Positions 20,252 to 40,203 of a stretch of DNA of 40,511 bases are shown here, in pieces. The stretch is from contig JAQUWL010000020.1 of the NCBI GenBank assembly GCA_028692875.1, positions 1 through 40,511 on the forward strand. Reading direction: 5' to 3'. The notes below the pieces were generated by a model, which was given only the letters and a program-made list of their open reading frames with translations, was not told the DNA's origin and did not search any database. Numbering within the stretch: the stretch's first letter is position 1; each line of letters starts with the position of its first letter. The translations under genes were made by a program, and so were the position numbers. This DNA is from Sulfurospirillaceae bacterium. Its GTDB lineage: Bacteria > Campylobacterota > Campylobacteria > Campylobacterales > Sulfurospirillaceae.

Positions 20252-20284
20252 AAAGCATAATTTGCCACTTTTAGGAGATGCCCT

Positions 20285-21028
20285 ATGACACAAGAAGAGC
20301 TAGATGCTTTGATGGCCGGAGATTTGGATGATTTTGAAGATTCTCAAGAAGAGACAGCTGAATCCAAATCAGATGAATCGGCAGATGAGCAACAAGAAGA
20401 AAATAGTGATTTGAATGACGAGAATATTTCTCAAGAAAAAGAGAGTTCTGGTGATACAAATAGATACAAAGCGTCAGCGGACTTGTCGTGGCCACCTCCG
20501 CCACCTACCGAAGACCATAAAATGGTAAGGCAGTTGGATGATGTAACAAAAGACTCGGAGATTAAAGCAACGCAAATATTTGACAAGCTTGAAATAATAA
20601 ATAATTTCATGGTGGATACTGAGACAAATGCAAAAGATATTATTATTCTTATCAAATCCAATATCTCATTGTTTGAAACTCTTGTGACAAAATTTCCTAG
20701 CATTGGTCAGTTTCAAAATGCTCTAGACGAGAACAGGCAAATGCAAGAAAAAATTGAAGATCTCGTATCAAATGCACAGATGGCAGAGGATGAGATTATG
20801 ATGATTATGGATATGATGCAGTATCAAGATATTCATCGTCAAAAAATTGAGCGTGTTATCAATGTTATGCGTGCCTTGTCAAAATACATGAGTGCATTGT
20901 TTGAAGGTACAAAAGATGACTTAAAACGTGTTGGCTCAGCAGTTCACATACATGGGGATGTTAGTACCGAAGAGGTTGTAAGCAACGAAGACATTGAGGT
21001 GTTGATTGCGGCATTAGGAAAGAAATAA
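20285..21028 (+). CDS. cheZ: CheZ-like CheY-P phosphatase
   Basis: Dephosphorylates CheY-P to terminate chemotactic signals; acts at the receptor array or flagellar pole. The long helical region (about residues 85-215) ends with DMMQYQDIHRQKIERVINVM, holding the catalytic Gln in the QYQD segment typical of epsilonproteobacterial CheZ. The C-terminal NEDIEVLIAALGKK resembles the CheY-binding helix of E. coli CheZ. The N-terminus, MTQEELDALMAGDLDDFED, resembles the EIDALL peptide of FliM that also binds CheY. An acidic Gln/Glu/Ser-rich linker and a WPPPPP stretch (about 69-74) separate them. AGGAG precedes the ATG. Gene position next to glnA and the U32 gene matches C. jejuni. Confidence 0.88.
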   Translation: MTQEELDALMAGDLDDFEDSQEETAESKSDESADEQQEENSDLNDENISQEKESSGDTNRYKASADLSWPPPPPTEDHKMVRQLDDVTKDSEIKATQIFDKLEIINNFMVDTETNAKDIIILIKSNISLFETLVTKFPSIGQFQNALDENRQMQEKIEDLVSNAQMAEDEIMMIMDMMQYQDIHRQKIERVINVMRALSKYMSALFEGTKDDLKRVGSAVHIHGDVSTEEVVSNEDIEVLIAALGKK

Positions 21029-22291
21029 GTGGCAAAAGTCGAGTTGCTATCTCCTGCTGGAAATTTTGAAAAACTGAAAATAGCACTTGCTTATGGTGCA
21101 GATGCTGTGTACGGCGGGGTAAGTCACTTTTCACTTAGGCTTCGCTCTGGCAAGGAGTTTACTTATGAAAGTTTTCAAGATGCTATTGATTATACTCATA
21201 CTCAGGGCAAGAAACTTTATGTTACCATAAACGGTTTTCCGTTTAATTCCCAAATAACGCTTTTAGAAAAACATATCGAAAAAGTTTCGGCAATGAAGCC
21301 TGATGGCTTTATAGTTGCTGCTCCAGGGGTTATTAGGCTCGCAAAAAGTATCGCTCCAAATATCCCAATCCATCTATCCACGCAAGCCAATGTGTTAAAT
21401 TATTTGGATGCACAGGTCTACTATGAGATGGGTGTAAAGCGTATTGTGGCAGCTAGAGAGGTAAGTTTGAAGGATTTGGAGCAGATTAAAAGTCGCCTGC
21501 CAGAGCTTGAGATAGAGGTTTTTGTTCACGGCTCAATGTGCTTTGCATATAGCGGTCGTTGTTTGATTAGCTCGGTTCAAAGCGGAAGAGTGGCAAATCG
21601 TGGCAGTTGTGCAAATGACTGTAGATTTCCATACACGCTTTATGCTCAAAACGAAGAGAGCGGAACGCTTTTTCGCATTGATGAAGATGCCGATGGAACG
21701 CATATTATGAACGCAAAAGATCTAAATCTCTCGTCGCATATAAAAGAGATACTTGATAGTGGTGTAGTGGATGCACTTAAGATAGAAGGTAGAACCAAAA
21801 GTGATTATTATGCAGGGATTACTGCTAAGACATATAGAAAAGCCATTGATGACTATTATATGGGTGTTTTTGAGCCATTTTTGTATGAGAGGGAGCTTGC
21901 GACCACAAAACATAGGGGTTTTACCGATGGTTATTTGGTAAATAGACCGTATGAAAAAAATGACACACAAAATTTAAAAGACTCTATTAGTGAGGGGACT
22001 CATCAAGTTTTTGCGGAAGTTGCCCAAAGCGGACTTACATGTATGGCAAAAGACAAGCTTGAGCCAAATGTGCCTTTTGAGCTGGTGCTTCCTACATGTA
22101 AAGAGTCTGTTGTTTTGGTGGATAATGATATCGGAAAAGTATATTGCGAAGAGGGTGTTTTTTATATTGTGTTTAAAACATTAAAATCAAGCTCTGGAAA
22201 AGTGTTTGAGGCAGTTCATAGTGGCAATGTGCATGAGATTACTCTTCCTGCTCCCTTGCCAGCGTTTACATTTTTAAGAAAAAAACTATAA
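21029..22291 (+). CDS. trhP: Peptidase U32 family, TrhP-like tRNA hydroxylation protein
   Basis: Related to E. coli TrhP (YegQ), needed for prephenate-dependent 5-hydroxyuridine formation at tRNA position 34. ELLSPAGNFEKLKIALAYGADAV is split over the U32 TIM-barrel start; EVFVHGSMCFAYSGRC and CANDCRF carry the four Cys expected of the iron-sulfur site, and DALKIEGRTKSDYY the later signature. The 420 residues are normal. GTG start directly after the cheZ stop. Older annotations call it collagenase-like protease, but protease activity is doubtful for this subgroup. Two TACATGTA sites (22036, 22093) encode Thr-Cys. Confidence 0.85.
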   Translation: MAKVELLSPAGNFEKLKIALAYGADAVYGGVSHFSLRLRSGKEFTYESFQDAIDYTHTQGKKLYVTINGFPFNSQITLLEKHIEKVSAMKPDGFIVAAPGVIRLAKSIAPNIPIHLSTQANVLNYLDAQVYYEMGVKRIVAAREVSLKDLEQIKSRLPELEIEVFVHGSMCFAYSGRCLISSVQSGRVANRGSCANDCRFPYTLYAQNEESGTLFRIDEDADGTHIMNAKDLNLSSHIKEILDSGVVDALKIEGRTKSDYYAGITAKTYRKAIDDYYMGVFEPFLYERELATTKHRGFTDGYLVNRPYEKNDTQNLKDSISEGTHQVFAEVAQSGLTCMAKDKLEPNVPFELVLPTCKESVVLVDNDIGKVYCEEGVFYIVFKTLKSSSGKVFEAVHSGNVHEITLPAPLPAFTFLRKKL

Positions 22292-34038: not shown

Positions 34039-37000
34039 ATGGATGATGTAAAGCCGACAATATTTATCGTCGATGATACGCCTGACAATCTTTCTTTTGT
34101 TGCTGGTTTGTTGAAAAATATCTACAATATAAAGGTTGCAAACTCAGGCAAAAAGTTATTGGATTACTTAGTTTCCAATAGCGTTCCAGATCTTATCTTA
34201 CTTGATGTGATTATGCCAGATCTCAGCGGATATGATGTTTTGCTAAAACTCAAAGAAAATAAAAAAACAAAAGAGATTCCCGTTGTTTTTTTGAGTGCGA
34301 TGAGTGGCGAAGAAGAGAGGCAAAAAGGACTTGATATGGGTGCGGTTGATTATCTTGTGAAGCCTATCGATGGATCGTCTCTTCTTGGGTGTATTGATAA
34401 GCAGCTTGCAAAAACAAACAAAAAGGATGGCTTTATTATGAAAACATTTATTGCACTATTTTTATTACCCATATTTTTGTTTGCATCTATAAATACCTCT
34501 TTGACTCAAGAGGAGGAAGAGTGGCTACAAAACCAAAAAGAGATACGTGTTGGTGCGATGGAGGCGTGGGCGCCTTTTGATTTTTTGAACTACAAGGGTG
34601 AGCCATCAGGAATAGGCGCAGACATCATCAACGCCCTAAATATAAGGCTTAACGGAAAACTAAAAATCGTTTCTGGAAGTTGGAGCGATATATACGAAAA
34701 GACAAAAAAAGGCGAGTTTCACGCCATACTTGACATTACCGAAAAGGAAGAGCGGAAGGATTTTTTTTATTTTACGCAGTCCTATCTTCAAGTCCCACAT
34801 GTTATTGTTTCAAGAAAGAGTTCGCCACGCATTGGCTCATTAAAGGAGCTTAAAGGCAAAAAGGTTGGTTTAGAAAAAAACATCGGAACGATTTTTGATC
34901 TTCAAGAAAACTTTCCATCTGTTACTATACAAACCTACACAAATACATCACACTGTCTTGATGCACTCTCTCGCGGCGAGGTCGATGCTTATGTTGGCAA
35001 TCGTGCGGTTGTGACCTATCTCATAGCAAAAGAGATGCTTGACAATCTTAAAATAGACGCACTTGACACGACAAGACAAAATTCTCCTTTGGCGCTGGGC
35101 ATCTCCAAACAATATCCTATTCTCAATGCAATACTCCAAAAAAAGATGGATGAGATATCTGGTGGCGAGCTTGGTGAGATTTTGGCAAGTTGGTCTGTTG
35201 GAAAATCTTCAAAAATAGATCTTAGCGAAGAGGAGTTTGCATGGCTCAATGCTCATCCTGTTATAAGGTTTACGGCAGATCCACACCACCTTCCCTTTGG
35301 AGGATTTGAAGAAGATGGGGATTATGTTGGGATTGTGGCAGATCATCTTAGGATACTTGAGGAAAGGCTTGGGGTTGCTTTTGTTAAAGTTCCCAGCAGT
35401 AGCCTAAGTGAAGCACTCGAGAAGGCAAAAAAAGGCGATGTCGATATCGTATCAAATCATATTGCAGACCAAACGCTTAAGCAGACACATGTTACGACAA
35501 AACCGTATATAAAAAGCCCTCTTGTTATCGTCACAAAAAAAGATAAAAGGGATTATTTTATAACCGATTTGTCAGAGCTTAAAAGAGATGTTATTGCCGT
35601 TATGAAGGGATATGGATATCTAAATCAAATCTACAAACAATATCCAAAATTAAAATTTGTAGAAGTTCAAAATGTTCAAGAGGCGATGGCTGGTGTTGCT
35701 TATGGAGAGTATGATGCTATGTTGGCATCTTTGACTCTAGCAACATATACAATAGGAAAAATGGGGCTTTACAATATCCATATCGCAGGTAAAACAGATA
35801 CTGTTATGGAGCTTGGAATCGGTGTTCGAAAAGATTGGGAGATTTTTGCGAAAATTCTTGAAAAAGGACTTGACTCTATAACACAGGAGGAGTCGAAAAA
35901 TATCACACAAAGCTGGATTTCAATCGAATCAAAATCATCTGTCGATTATGATTTGATTTTGAAGATTGTTGGCGTTTTTCTTTTTGTACTTTTTGTACTT
36001 TTTTATTGGAACTATGAACTTAAAAAGCAGGTGGCAAAAAAAACAGCTGAGCTTAAAGCGTTTAACTTAAAGCTTGAAAGTATCGTTGAAGCAAGGACGA
36101 GAGAGTTGGCATTTTTAAATGAGGAGCAACAGGCGATTTTTGATTCGGCAAGTGTTGGGATAGCTCTTTTGAAAAATGGTGTTATTGTTCAGTGTAACAG
36201 AAGAATGGATGAGCTTTTTGGGTATGAACAATCAGAGCAGTTGCATAAAAATGCAGATATTTGGTTTCCTAACAAATCTGACTTGTCACAGATTTGTGAA
36301 AATATTTGGTATAGCAAGACGTCTATATGGGAGCAGCAATTTCTTAGAAAAGATGGTTCTATGTTCTGGGGGCGTATCTCTTGCCGTGCTATTAATATAG
36401 AAAAAAAAGAGAATGGTGTTGTTTCGGTTGTGGAGGATATAACAGGCGAAATACAAGCGATGGAAGATATCAATAGAGCAAAAATTCTTGCAGAAGAGAC
36501 AACAAAAATCAAAAGCGATTTTCTTGCCAATATGAGTCACGAAATAAGAACGCCGATGAATGTTATTATTGGCATGTCAAATCTTGCTCTTCAAGGAGAG
36601 CTAAATCCAAAGCAGAAAAACTATATTGAAAAAGTCAATGCCGCTTCAAAAAATCTACTTAGAATTATTAACGATATTTTGGATTTTTCAAAGATAGAAG
36701 CTGGAAAAATGACCTTTGAAAATATTGATTTTTATCTAGAAGAAGTTATGGAACATTTGTCGGATATTTGTGTTATGAAGGCTCAAGAGAAGGGACTGGA
36801 GCTTCTTTTTGATGTTGGCTGTGATGTTCCAACTGGGCTGAAGGGTGATCCACTAAGGCTGAGTCAGGTTTTAATAAATCTTTTAAACAATGCTATAAAA
36901 TTTACCGAAGCCGGAGAGGTAAGACTTGGGATTCATCTTGTTTCTAAAGACAAAAACTTTGTCACGCTTCATTTTGAAATAAAAGATACTGGTATAGGAA

Positions 37001-39048
37001 TGTCCAAAGAGCATTTGGAGAAAATATTTCAAGCCTTCTCTCAAGCAGATATATCAACAACTCGCAAATACGGAGGTTCTGGACTAGGACTTGCTATATC
37101 AAAACATCTTATCGGGATGATGCAAGGAAATATAGGCGTTTCTAGTGAGCTTGGGAAAGGTAGCACTTTTTATTTTAATGCTACTTTTGGTCTTCAGGAG
37201 GAGCAAGAAAAAGTTGTTTTAAAAGATGAGGAGATTCAAAATCTTCGCATATTGGTTGTTGACGACAATGATAGTGCCAGAGAGATTTTGGAAAATATAT
37301 TGCGATCTTTAAAGTTTGAAGTGAGTTGTGCTCGTGATGGATTTGAGGCTATATCGATGCTTCAAGAGGCTGTCGCTCAAAATCGCCCATATGGACTTGT
37401 TTTTATGGATTGGATTATGCCAAAAATGGATGGCGTTCAGACTATCAATAAGATACGCAAAGAGAGTGGTATCTGCAATACGGTGGCGTTTGTAATGGTA
37501 ACATCTTATAGTAAAGAAGAGTTAAAAATGCAACTTGACAAGACAAAAATAGATGGAATTTTGATCAAGCCTGTAAGTCCATCAGGTCTTCTTAATGCCA
37601 TTTTAAATGTTCTCGGCAAGGAGGCTTTGATACGTTCAAGAAAAGATGATAAAAAATATCTCTATGAAAACGCAGTGAAGTCGCTAGCGGGAGCTAAGGT
37701 TTTGCTAGTCGAGGACAATGCAGTCAATCAAGAGATGGCGATAGATATATTGGGGGGTGCTGGCTTGAAAGTTGAGATTGCCAATGATGGAAAAGAGGCG
37801 ATTTTAATGGTGGAGAAAAATAGATACGATGGTGTTTTGATGGATTGTCAGATGCCAACAATGGATGGATTTGAGGCGACAAAAATCATAAGAGCCAATG
37901 AAAAATTTAAAGACCTTCCTGTATTGGCGATGACCGCAAATGCGATGACTGGGGATCGAGAAAGATGCCTTGAATGTGGAATGAATGACCATATCGCAAA
38001 GCCAATTGATGTATTGCAACTTTTTTCAACAATGGCAAAATGGATAAAACCACAAGAGCAGTCGCTCCCTAAAGTCGATGATAATTGCCCAAAAAAAAGC
38101 TCTTTAAAGACAAAAGAGATAGAACATCTTGATTTGGAAGGGGCTTTGCAGAGATTTGGCGGAGATGCTAAGCTTTTTCTTAAGATGCTAAAACGATTTG
38201 CACAGAGCCAGCTTGGTGTTATCGATAGCATCAAAGAGGCGATTTTGGTTTTAGACTTTGAAAAAGCTAGCAGAGATGCCCACACACTAAAGGGTCTTGC
38301 TGGGAATGTTGGTGCTTATGAGCTTTTTGAAGATGCAAAAGAGCTTGAAAAAAGATTGCAACATGGTGGAGTTGAGGGAATTGATATTTTGCTTGAAAAA
38401 GCTTCTGCATCGCTTACTTTGGCAATAAAAAGCATTGAAAAAGTTTTAGAAAAAGAGGAGCATTTGGGGATTGATTATGATGCTGGTTTGGCAACGGCGA
38501 TGGGGAATGATGCCCTTTTTAACGAGCTTTTAATAAGATTTCGAGACCATGAAAAAGATTTTGAAACAAAACTCAATGACGCTTTAGAGAAAAATGATAT
38601 TCATTCTGCTATCATTTGTGTTCATAGTCTAAAAGGATTGGCTGGAAATATCGGTGCAAAAGAGTTGCAACATTGTGCTTTAAGGCTTGAGTTAGCATTA
38701 CAAAAAAATCTTTCCAAAGAGAGTATTCAAGAATATAAAAAAGAGATGCTAGAGTCCTTGCAAGAAGTTATGGATGAGCTTGAGCACATCAAAGAGAAGA
38801 GTAAAAAGCAGAATAAAAAACAGAAGTTTGATAAAGAATTTGCAATCTTTTTGCTAAAGGTGCTCAAAGAGGAGTTGCAAGGATACGATGCAAAGGCATG
38901 TGAAAGTGTTGAAAAGCTGGTTGCCTTTTTTGATGGACACGAGATGGAAGAAGAGTTCGAAAAGGTCTCTCGATACACAAATGAGTATCGATTTGAAGAG
39001 GCCTTGGCAGAGATGGAGAGATTTGAAAAGAAGTTAAAGGGGGCTTGA
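34039..39048 (+). CDS. Giant hybrid sensor histidine kinase with N-terminal receiver
   Basis: 1669 residues. Domain order: receiver (1-125, DD12-13, phospho-Asp56, Lys in YLVKP); a signal-peptide-like segment from Met134 (MKTFIALFLLPIFLFAS); two bacterial SBP_3-type periplasmic sensor domains (about 169-387 and 405-625); a membrane helix (640-657); a coiled coil; PAS (about 697-803); HisKA with MSHEIRTPMN (His834); HATPase with NNAIKFT, DTGIGM and GGSGLGLA; two receivers (phospho-Asp1124, Asp1269); and two HPt domains (His1415 and His1529, both in H-[TS]-LKGLAGN). The sensed ligand is unknown. An internal ATG at 34438 has AAGGA upstream and could produce the receptor without the first receiver. 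It is followed 3 bases later by a second kinase. Confidence 0.9.
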   Translation: MDDVKPTIFIVDDTPDNLSFVAGLLKNIYNIKVANSGKKLLDYLVSNSVPDLILLDVIMPDLSGYDVLLKLKENKKTKEIPVVFLSAMSGEEERQKGLDMGAVDYLVKPIDGSSLLGCIDKQLAKTNKKDGFIMKTFIALFLLPIFLFASINTSLTQEEEEWLQNQKEIRVGAMEAWAPFDFLNYKGEPSGIGADIINALNIRLNGKLKIVSGSWSDIYEKTKKGEFHAILDITEKEERKDFFYFTQSYLQVPHVIVSRKSSPRIGSLKELKGKKVGLEKNIGTIFDLQENFPSVTIQTYTNTSHCLDALSRGEVDAYVGNRAVVTYLIAKEMLDNLKIDALDTTRQNSPLALGISKQYPILNAILQKKMDEISGGELGEILASWSVGKSSKIDLSEEEFAWLNAHPVIRFTADPHHLPFGGFEEDGDYVGIVADHLRILEERLGVAFVKVPSSSLSEALEKAKKGDVDIVSNHIADQTLKQTHVTTKPYIKSPLVIVTKKDKRDYFITDLSELKRDVIAVMKGYGYLNQIYKQYPKLKFVEVQNVQEAMAGVAYGEYDAMLASLTLATYTIGKMGLYNIHIAGKTDTVMELGIGVRKDWEIFAKILEKGLDSITQEESKNITQSWISIESKSSVDYDLILKIVGVFLFVLFVLFYWNYELKKQVAKKTAELKAFNLKLESIVEARTRELAFLNEEQQAIFDSASVGIALLKNGVIVQCNRRMDELFGYEQSEQLHKNADIWFPNKSDLSQICENIWYSKTSIWEQQFLRKDGSMFWGRISCRAINIEKKENGVVSVVEDITGEIQAMEDINRAKILAEETTKIKSDFLANMSHEIRTPMNVIIGMSNLALQGELNPKQKNYIEKVNAASKNLLRIINDILDFSKIEAGKMTFENIDFYLEEVMEHLSDICVMKAQEKGLELLFDVGCDVPTGLKGDPLRLSQVLINLLNNAIKFTEAGEVRLGIHLVSKDKNFVTLHFEIKDTGIGMSKEHLEKIFQAFSQADISTTRKYGGSGLGLAISKHLIGMMQGNIGVSSELGKGSTFYFNATFGLQEEQEKVVLKDEEIQNLRILVVDDNDSAREILENILRSLKFEVSCARDGFEAISMLQEAVAQNRPYGLVFMDWIMPKMDGVQTINKIRKESGICNTVAFVMVTSYSKEELKMQLDKTKIDGILIKPVSPSGLLNAILNVLGKEALIRSRKDDKKYLYENAVKSLAGAKVLLVEDNAVNQEMAIDILGGAGLKVEIANDGKEAILMVEKNRYDGVLMDCQMPTMDGFEATKIIRANEKFKDLPVLAMTANAMTGDRERCLECGMNDHIAKPIDVLQLFSTMAKWIKPQEQSLPKVDDNCPKKSSLKTKEIEHLDLEGALQRFGGDAKLFLKMLKRFAQSQLGVIDSIKEAILVLDFEKASRDAHTLKGLAGNVGAYELFEDAKELEKRLQHGGVEGIDILLEKASASLTLAIKSIEKVLEKEEHLGIDYDAGLATAMGNDALFNELLIRFRDHEKDFETKLNDALEKNDIHSAIICVHSLKGLAGNIGAKELQHCALRLELALQKNLSKESIQEYKKEMLESLQEVMDELEHIKEKSKKQNKKQKFDKEFAIFLLKVLKEELQGYDAKACESVEKLVAFFDGHEMEEEFEKVSRYTNEYRFEEALAEMERFEKKLKGA

Positions 39049-39051
39049 AAA

Positions 39052-40203
39052 ATGAAAAAATTTAAATTGCTTATCATCGATGATTTACCTGAAAATATTT
39101 CTCTGATGACAAACATATTGAAAGATGATTATGAGATTGTGGTTGCAAACAGTGCGCATTTGGGACTTGAGTTGGCAAAAAAAGATCCCAAGGTTGACCT
39201 CATTTTACTAGATATCGTTATGCCCCAGATAGATGGATATGAGGTGTGTAAAATCCTCAAGTCACATGTCTGTACGCAAGATATTCCAGTTATTTTTCTT
39301 ACTATTTTGGATGAAGCTTCAGATGTTGAAAAAGGGTTTTTATCGGGCGGGGTGGATTATGTGACGAAGCCTTTTGAGCCTTCTATTTTAAAGGCTCGTG
39401 TAAAAACGCATTGTATTCTTGCATCTCAGAAAAAAGAGCTTAAGCGATTTAACCACTCTTTGGAGGCTTTGGTTGTAGAGCGGACAAAAGAGCTAGAGCA
39501 GGCAAATCTGCAAGTAGAAAGACTTGCACGTCAAGCCGCATTGGGTGATGTTATCGCTATGATAGCCCATCAATGGAAACAGCCTATCAGTGTTATCTCA
39601 ATGGCAGTAAATTATGTTTTGTCTGATATAGAGCTTGGGCAGTTAAACCCCGAAGAGACACAAAGAGAGATGCAAAATATTATCAAACAGATAGATCATA
39701 TGACAAGTACGATTGATAACTTTAGAAACTTTTTTAAACCAAACAAAGAGAAGCAAATCGTTAATGTTATTGAGTTTTTTGACTGTTTGAGGGACCTAAT
39801 GAGGGCGGTTCTTTCTCATTATGGCATTGACCTAACTATCGAGTTTAACGGTGTTGAGACTTTGGAGATATATAAAAATGAGCTTTTGCAGGTTGTGATA
39901 AATCTTATCAATAACGCAAAAGATGCAATCGTCTCAAATGGAATACAAAATGGAAAAATAACAATCAAACTACATAAGCTAAATAACGGTGTTAATGTAG
40001 AAATATGTGATAACGGTGGTGGTATTTTGGAGAGTGTTGCTGAAAAATTGACAGAGGCGTATGTGACAACAAAAGGCGACAAGGAAGGCACAGGGTTAGG
40101 TCTTTATATGAGCAAAATGATAGTTCAAAAACATCTTCAAGGCACACTTGATTGGTACAATCAAAATGGTGGTGCTTGTTTTTGTATCACGATACCACAA
40201 TAA
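39052..40203 (+). CDS. Soluble response regulator-histidine kinase fusion
   Basis: 383 residues, no membrane segment. The N-terminal receiver (1-120; DD10-11, phospho-Asp54, Lys in YVTKP) is followed by a coiled coil (about 130-160) and a kinase core with MIAHQWKQPISVISM (His173 in an HQWKQP H-box, not the usual HExRTP) and an ATPase domain with INNAKDAI, CDNGGGI and GTGLGLYMSK. Its receiver could accept phosphate from an HPt domain of the preceding giant kinase. It starts 3 bases after that gene, so the two are coexpressed. No output DNA-binding domain is present; the final target is unknown. Confidence 0.9.
   Translation: MKKFKLLIIDDLPENISLMTNILKDDYEIVVANSAHLGLELAKKDPKVDLILLDIVMPQIDGYEVCKILKSHVCTQDIPVIFLTILDEASDVEKGFLSGGVDYVTKPFEPSILKARVKTHCILASQKKELKRFNHSLEALVVERTKELEQANLQVERLARQAALGDVIAMIAHQWKQPISVISMAVNYVLSDIELGQLNPEETQREMQNIIKQIDHMTSTIDNFRNFFKPNKEKQIVNVIEFFDCLRDLMRAVLSHYGIDLTIEFNGVETLEIYKNELLQVVINLINNAKDAIVSNGIQNGKITIKLHKLNNGVNVEICDNGGGILESVAEKLTEAYVTTKGDKEGTGLGLYMSKMIVQKHLQGTLDWYNQNGGACFCITIPQ

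Follow-up and report, generated by a model that had tools for sequence, protein, structure and literature searches.

The locus described here raises the question of why a phosphatase of phosphorylated CheY (CheY-P) should begin with a peptide resembling the one at the N terminus of the motor protein FliM. The gene is cheZ, which occupies positions 20285-21028 (+) of a 40,511-nucleotide stretch of contig JAQUWL010000020.1 (assembly GCA_028692875.1, a Sulfurospirillaceae bacterium), called the window below. This open reading frame (ORF) encodes a 247-amino acid protein with the N terminus MTQEELDALMAGDLDDFED, the opening stretch of which, MTQEELDALMAGDL, can be set against MADILSQEEIDALLEVVD at the N terminus of FliM from the same genome. 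The FliM-like peptide proper, MTQEELDALM, comprises residues 1-10 (20285-20314, +) and was delimited from the sequence, alignments, and an AlphaFold2 model in which residues 3-11 are predicted to be helical. The EIDAL(L) motif at the N termini of FliM and FliY is the binding site for CheY-P (PMC9126983, PMC6946799), and the sequence of the CheZ peptide is likewise read most readily as a FliM-type docking peptide for CheY-P, which we consider the likeliest of the explanations weighed here.

The N-terminal motif claimed in the original prediction is real. The pattern [ST]QEE[hydrophobic]DxL has just two sites in the whole 1.94-Mb genome, the N termini of FliM and of CheZ, and none in the reversed control. 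The start of the gene is sound, because a Shine-Dalgarno-like AGGAG, recognized by reading the sequence (20273-20277, +), stands 7 nucleotides 5' of the ATG at 20285 and there is no earlier ATG in the open frame. With a looser, ATG-anchored pattern, matches were obtained in 80 of 101 genomes of the phylum, nearly always a single one at the start of cheZ, and again none in the reversed control. The remaining matches, as far as they were inspected, are internal to unrelated proteins or coincide with the N terminus of DnaA, and no third FliM-like family was found among those inspected.

The claim stood or fell with the conservation of the motif in Campylobacterota CheZ, and this was far from poor. 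The CheZ proteins compared were gathered without the N terminus as bait, using a family hidden Markov model together with the catalytic and QLDDV patterns, and include 188 of full-length type from other genomes and more than 45 genera, not all of them independent because the two collections overlap in some species. Of these 188, 187 have the motif and one, a diverged protein (L061), does not. Mean pairwise identity is 0.87 over residues 1-10 and 0.86 over the catalytic helix, compared with 0.67 in the helix at the C terminus and 0.17 in the linker. Examples of the range are an H. pylori-type CheZ (L002), which has the N terminus MTQEELDALMSGGDLENLE and the C-terminal motif ADDIEALIASFGAK, and the most divergent CheZ family, in which the N terminus reads MSMSQEEIEALMNGLD. 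Synonymous variation is plentiful in the codons of the peptide, pairs differing at a mean of 3.4 of the 8 degenerate codons, and the 53 sequences with an identical MTQEELDALM are encoded by 40 distinct 30-mers, which argues that selection acts on the peptide. The peptide is thus kept phylum-wide at the protein level, as strongly as the catalytic helix.

The AlphaFold2 model of the window CheZ, built with 50 relatives, has helices at residues 3-11 (predicted local distance difference test (pLDDT) ∼64, a low confidence), 77-136, 141-207, and 234-246. The overall layout suggested by the model is of short end helices on either side of a hairpin, the N-terminal one tethered by a long acidic linker that ends in WPPPPP. 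The linker, residues 12-68 (20318-20488, +), is acidic and variable (the pairwise identity of 0.17 given above) and is predicted to be disordered, with pLDDT below 50 at residues 17-63. The WPPPPP at residues 69-74 (20489-20506, +) is conserved in the alignments of most genera outside an Arcobacteraceae-like family, in which other sequence takes its place between linker and hairpin. The predicted helical hairpin of the CheZ core, residues 77-207 (20513-20905, +), bears on its second helix the catalytic D182-xxx-Q186 (20828-20842, +), which aligns with FQDLTGQ of E. coli and with the Asp-189/Gln-193 active site of H. pylori CheZ (PMC11237671), and both residues are invariant in 33 aligned CheZ sequences. 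Comparisons of the model with PDB structures (Foldseek, VIA-align) returned only generic helical hairpins, many and unrelated, and were uninformative on CheZ membership. The protein ends in SNEDIEVLIAALGKK, and the CheZ-type helix that the original prediction had placed there is corroborated by the model, by conservation, and by alignment to the C-tail of E. coli CheZ, which together point to a CheY-binding-type helix at residues 234-246 (NEDIEVLIAALGK; 20984-21022, +). Its core, [ED][ED]h[DE]xLh, is not rare, with 52 occurrences genome-wide versus 19 in the control; the noteworthy feature is such a core at both ends of one protein, not the C-terminal core by itself.

New here is the finding that the CheZ tail of the Arcobacteraceae-like family (f7) holds additional FliM-like motifs. 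All 19 examined cheZ genes of this family adjoin a cheY whose product shares 60-66% identity with this genome's CheY, and Arcobacter has a cheZY arrangement in which CheYz is a CheY retaining the FliM-binding residues (PMC9321776); from this cheZ-cheY pairing we take the family to be probably Arcobacteraceae. Its CheZ tails are long, with 97-202 residues as linker length was measured here, and that of L059 holds the extra motifs MSEDDIANLI, MSDNDIDALL, SSDEIDSII, and TSEIDDLI. By one motif definition the linkers of the family (2,732 residues) contain 31 FliM-like motifs, a count that is inflated by the relatedness of the sequences, versus 1.4 in shuffles, none of 500 of which reaches 31; the 169 other CheZ have 1 such motif in 10,903 linker residues. 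Carriers of tail motifs are L052-L054, L056-L059, and L175-L185 (L052 and L057 only under a looser or different definition), and L055 has none. One motif recurs at residues 34-51 in most of the 19 sequences, despite the variable rest of the tail.

Some genomes of the same family also have short CheZ paralogues of ∼119-162 amino acids, in which the C-terminal motif is always present and the N-terminal motif only in some. Two of these (L173 and L174, about 150-160 amino acids) keep the N-terminal motif, the catalytic helix, and the C-terminal motif and have lost WPPPPP, and L186-L189 (∼119 amino acids) keep the catalytic helix and the C-terminal motif without the N-terminal one. From these paralogues the C-terminal motif looks the more essential and the N-terminal motif optional but strongly kept, which matches the H. 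pylori deletions described below. Separately, two short CheZ-like proteins (L062 and L063) have neither end motif; FliM is undetectable in one of their genomes and gives a weak match in the other.

What the peptide might bind can be approached through the CheY of this genome, the gene for which adjoins prmA. Its nearest counterpart is H. pylori CheY1 (E 2e-63), to which it is identical in the α4-β5-α5 residues as aligned, and it keeps Tyr-106 and Lys-119 of E. coli. In V. cholerae CheY3 the lysine equivalent to Lys-119 is placed to form a salt bridge with Asp-12 of FliM, and the same CheY face is used by the CheZ C-terminal helix and by FliM (PMC3774744). We infer that the CheZ N-peptide binds CheY-P, competes with FliM, and tunes the response, and it is probably a second, non-essential docking arm of the FliM type. 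The first ∼10 residues, as an EIDAL peptide, would form a short helix on the α4-β5-α5 face of phosphorylated CheY, and the C-terminal helix would be the essential CheY-P docking element for catalysis by Asp-182 and Gln-186; docking of CheY-P through this helix is established for E. coli. On a flexible acidic tether of 55-70 residues the N-peptide would raise the local capture of CheY-P, would let the CheZ dimer hold or hand over CheY-P, with more CheY-P than active sites, and would put CheZ in competition with FliM for one and the same face of CheY. Such an arm would alter the sensitivity and timing of the response and leave catalysis itself unchanged, which would account for mild deletion phenotypes. 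We count in favor of CheY docking the extra tail motifs of the Arcobacteraceae-like family together with its adjoining cheY, which matches CheYz with FliM-binding residues kept, and the retention in L173 and L174 of the catalytic helix and of the motifs at either end after loss of the proline-rich segment.

Several observations weigh against docking on CheY-P. H. pylori CheZ without residues 1-39 is reported to keep phosphatase function and biofilm initiation, and a C-terminal deletion is reported to affect both and to abolish phosphatase function (PMC11237671). In some polar flagellates the FliM N terminus is a contact site for FlhG as well (PMC12826062). Moreover, the CheZ peptide is consistently unlike that of FliM, with LM-[NA]-G for LL-[ED] and the initiator Met for Leu before SQ; the residue preceding S/T-Q is hydrophobic, but is Met in all aligned CheZ where FliM has Leu. 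These differences suggest affinity tuning or another receiver domain, and the peptide may therefore be tuned to a partner other than CheY. The original prediction proposed that CheY-P could be captured at one end and presented to the catalytic helix, or that CheZ could compete with FliM directly, and the H. pylori deletion also bears on the first of these proposals. The two-ended design is consistent with the FliM-type peptide, its predicted helix, the predicted disordered acidic tether, and the retention of Tyr-106 and Lys-119 in CheY, but capture as an obligatory prelude to catalysis is not supported, given the intact function reported for the deletion protein and the short paralogues without the N-terminal motif. 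Because phosphatase function remains when residues 1-39 are removed, the peptide would be an accessory.

Another receiver could be the REC domain of CheV, CheA, or ChePep, on which the peptide would dock and so tie CheZ to the array or the pole. The CheA of this genome ends in a REC domain, Campylobacterota use CheV, and ChePep, a CheZ partner, is required for the polar position of CheZ in H. pylori (PMC11237671, PMC7750401). A receiver other than CheY would suit a peptide that departs consistently from that of FliM; nevertheless, its residues are those of the CheY-binding EIDAL motif, the motif arrays of the Arcobacteraceae-like family adjoin cheY, and we regard docking on another REC domain as unlikely. 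The polar-localization region of H. pylori CheZ is said, in work by Lertsethtakarn et al. from 2015, to lie in the central part of the protein. An N-helix with a structural or autoinhibitory role, packing on the CheZ bundle or keeping the C-terminal docking site covered in the absence of CheY-P, is a somewhat poorer prospect: the helix is short and amphipathic, and the two ends of CheZ are alike and could occupy related surfaces, but a hypervariable disordered linker separates it from the core, its similarity is to FliM, and its pLDDT is only ∼64.

We find it harder still to favor a role for the peptide in flagellar assembly, whereby it would bind, as a FliM mimic, to FlhG, the ATPase controlling the number of polar flagella. 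Campylobacterota do have FlhG and polar flagella; however, the presence of several copies of the motif in a CheY phosphatase whose gene lies beside cheY suits CheY better, the C-terminal end of the same protein bears a related CheY-binding helix, and our literature search found no report of a contact between FlhG and CheZ. Finally, the motif is encoded by the first codons of the gene, as would be expected if a translation start or an RNA element were conserved and not the peptide, but the 40 distinct 30-mers behind 53 identical peptides speak against this, and given such free synonymous codon variation we rejected the explanation as having practically no chance of being correct.

A broader and more tentative proposal can also be made, which we hold to be possible, though short of probable. 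Campylobacterota CheZ would be a multivalent CheY-P hook, most genera having two FliM/CheZ-type peptides in each chain and most Arcobacteraceae-like proteins two to five along the N-terminal tail plus the C-terminal one, and would serve both as a phosphatase and as a CheY-P buffer or FliM competitor, shaping motor switching by a route separate from catalysis. CheZ sets the duration of the run/reverse signal in H. pylori, C. jejuni, and free-living relatives, and a FliM mimic on this phosphatase would give a concrete, testable role to a region that was called of unknown function in H. pylori CheZ in 2024 (PMC11237671). The repeated motifs of the Arcobacteraceae-like family offer a way to ask whether multivalent binding, not catalysis, tunes the motor. 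In the literature surveyed no comparison of the H. pylori CheZ N terminus with FliM was found, although the primary papers of 2010 and 2015, which lie outside the survey, might mention one.

The identity of the window protein as an orthologue of the remote H. pylori-type CheZ, i.e. the CheZ of Campylobacterota, rests on a family match, on its orthologues, and on gene order. The NCBIfam family NF041271 (Phos_CheZ, protein phosphatase CheZ) matches it over its full length (residues 1-247; E 1.6e-68) with 230.8 bits versus a curated cut-off of 350. Across the sampled genomes of the phylum this family has a match in 249 of 298 but exceeds the 350-bit cut-off in only 23, which indicates that the cut-off selects some members without delimiting the family; automatic annotation that relies on it may overlook most Campylobacterota CheZ. 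The nearest named relatives are from Sulfurospirillum. A Pfam scan of the protein gave no credible match, with neither a CheC nor a SPOA domain; a PDB sequence search gave no relative, and none was found in the viral contigs searched. Directly downstream lies trhP of the U32 peptidase family (21029-22291, +). In 121 of the 132 loci examined that do not belong to the Arcobacteraceae-like family cheZ has this 3' neighbor, in agreement with the constant cheZ-trhP order reported among F3-class Campylobacterota (PMC9321776).

Some observations on other proteins of this genome may be added. Loose [ED][ED]h[DE]xLL cores are present in a CheX-like protein upstream of FliN and in the CheA linker, for which we make no claim because the core is found 52 times in the genome. 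Residues ∼167-195 of the CheA ORF (L271) read MSDKEVEDEIERLLKIRKEEDKKRR and lie in a linker, at a position where one might look for a P2 domain, possibly forming a short CheY-docking segment. Elsewhere in the window, an ORF of 1669 amino acids (34039-39048) has three receiver domains, and the next ORF (39052-40203) also has one.

Among known systems, H. pylori CheZ (HP0170), for which CheY-P phosphatase activity has been demonstrated (PMC11237671), is of the same type as the window protein, sharing DxxxQ, the trhP neighbor, and the N- and C-terminal motifs with no essential difference. E. coli CheZ has in common with it the DxxxQ catalytic helix and the C-terminal CheY-binding helix (SQDQVDDLLDSLGF), the only parts that align in a profile comparison, whereas its N terminus (MMQPSIKPADEHSAGD) has no FliM-like motif; it is the only CheZ checked outside the phylum. 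With FliM, the CheZ peptide shares the core Q-E-E-[IL]-D-A-L, the position at the extreme N terminus, and an acidic stretch that follows, but most species have L where FliM has I, and the peptide further differs in LM for LL, in a Met in place of the Leu that precedes SQ, and in being part of a phosphatase. The FliY of B. subtilis and T. maritima is a CheY-P phosphatase with an EIDAL-type CheY-P-binding N terminus (PMC9126983, PMC12826062), a combination that the window CheZ would share; the motif was not found in the Campylobacterota FliY N termini examined. Unlike CheZ, FliY is a CheC-type phosphatase with a SPOA domain that is built into the motor, and the two are unrelated in sequence. The window protein therefore resembles FliY in principle, as a phosphatase with an EIDAL peptide, but is no member of that family since it has no CheC or SPOA domain. 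The comparison suggests that two unrelated phosphatases, CheZ here and FliY in Firmicutes, have acquired or kept the same motor peptide.
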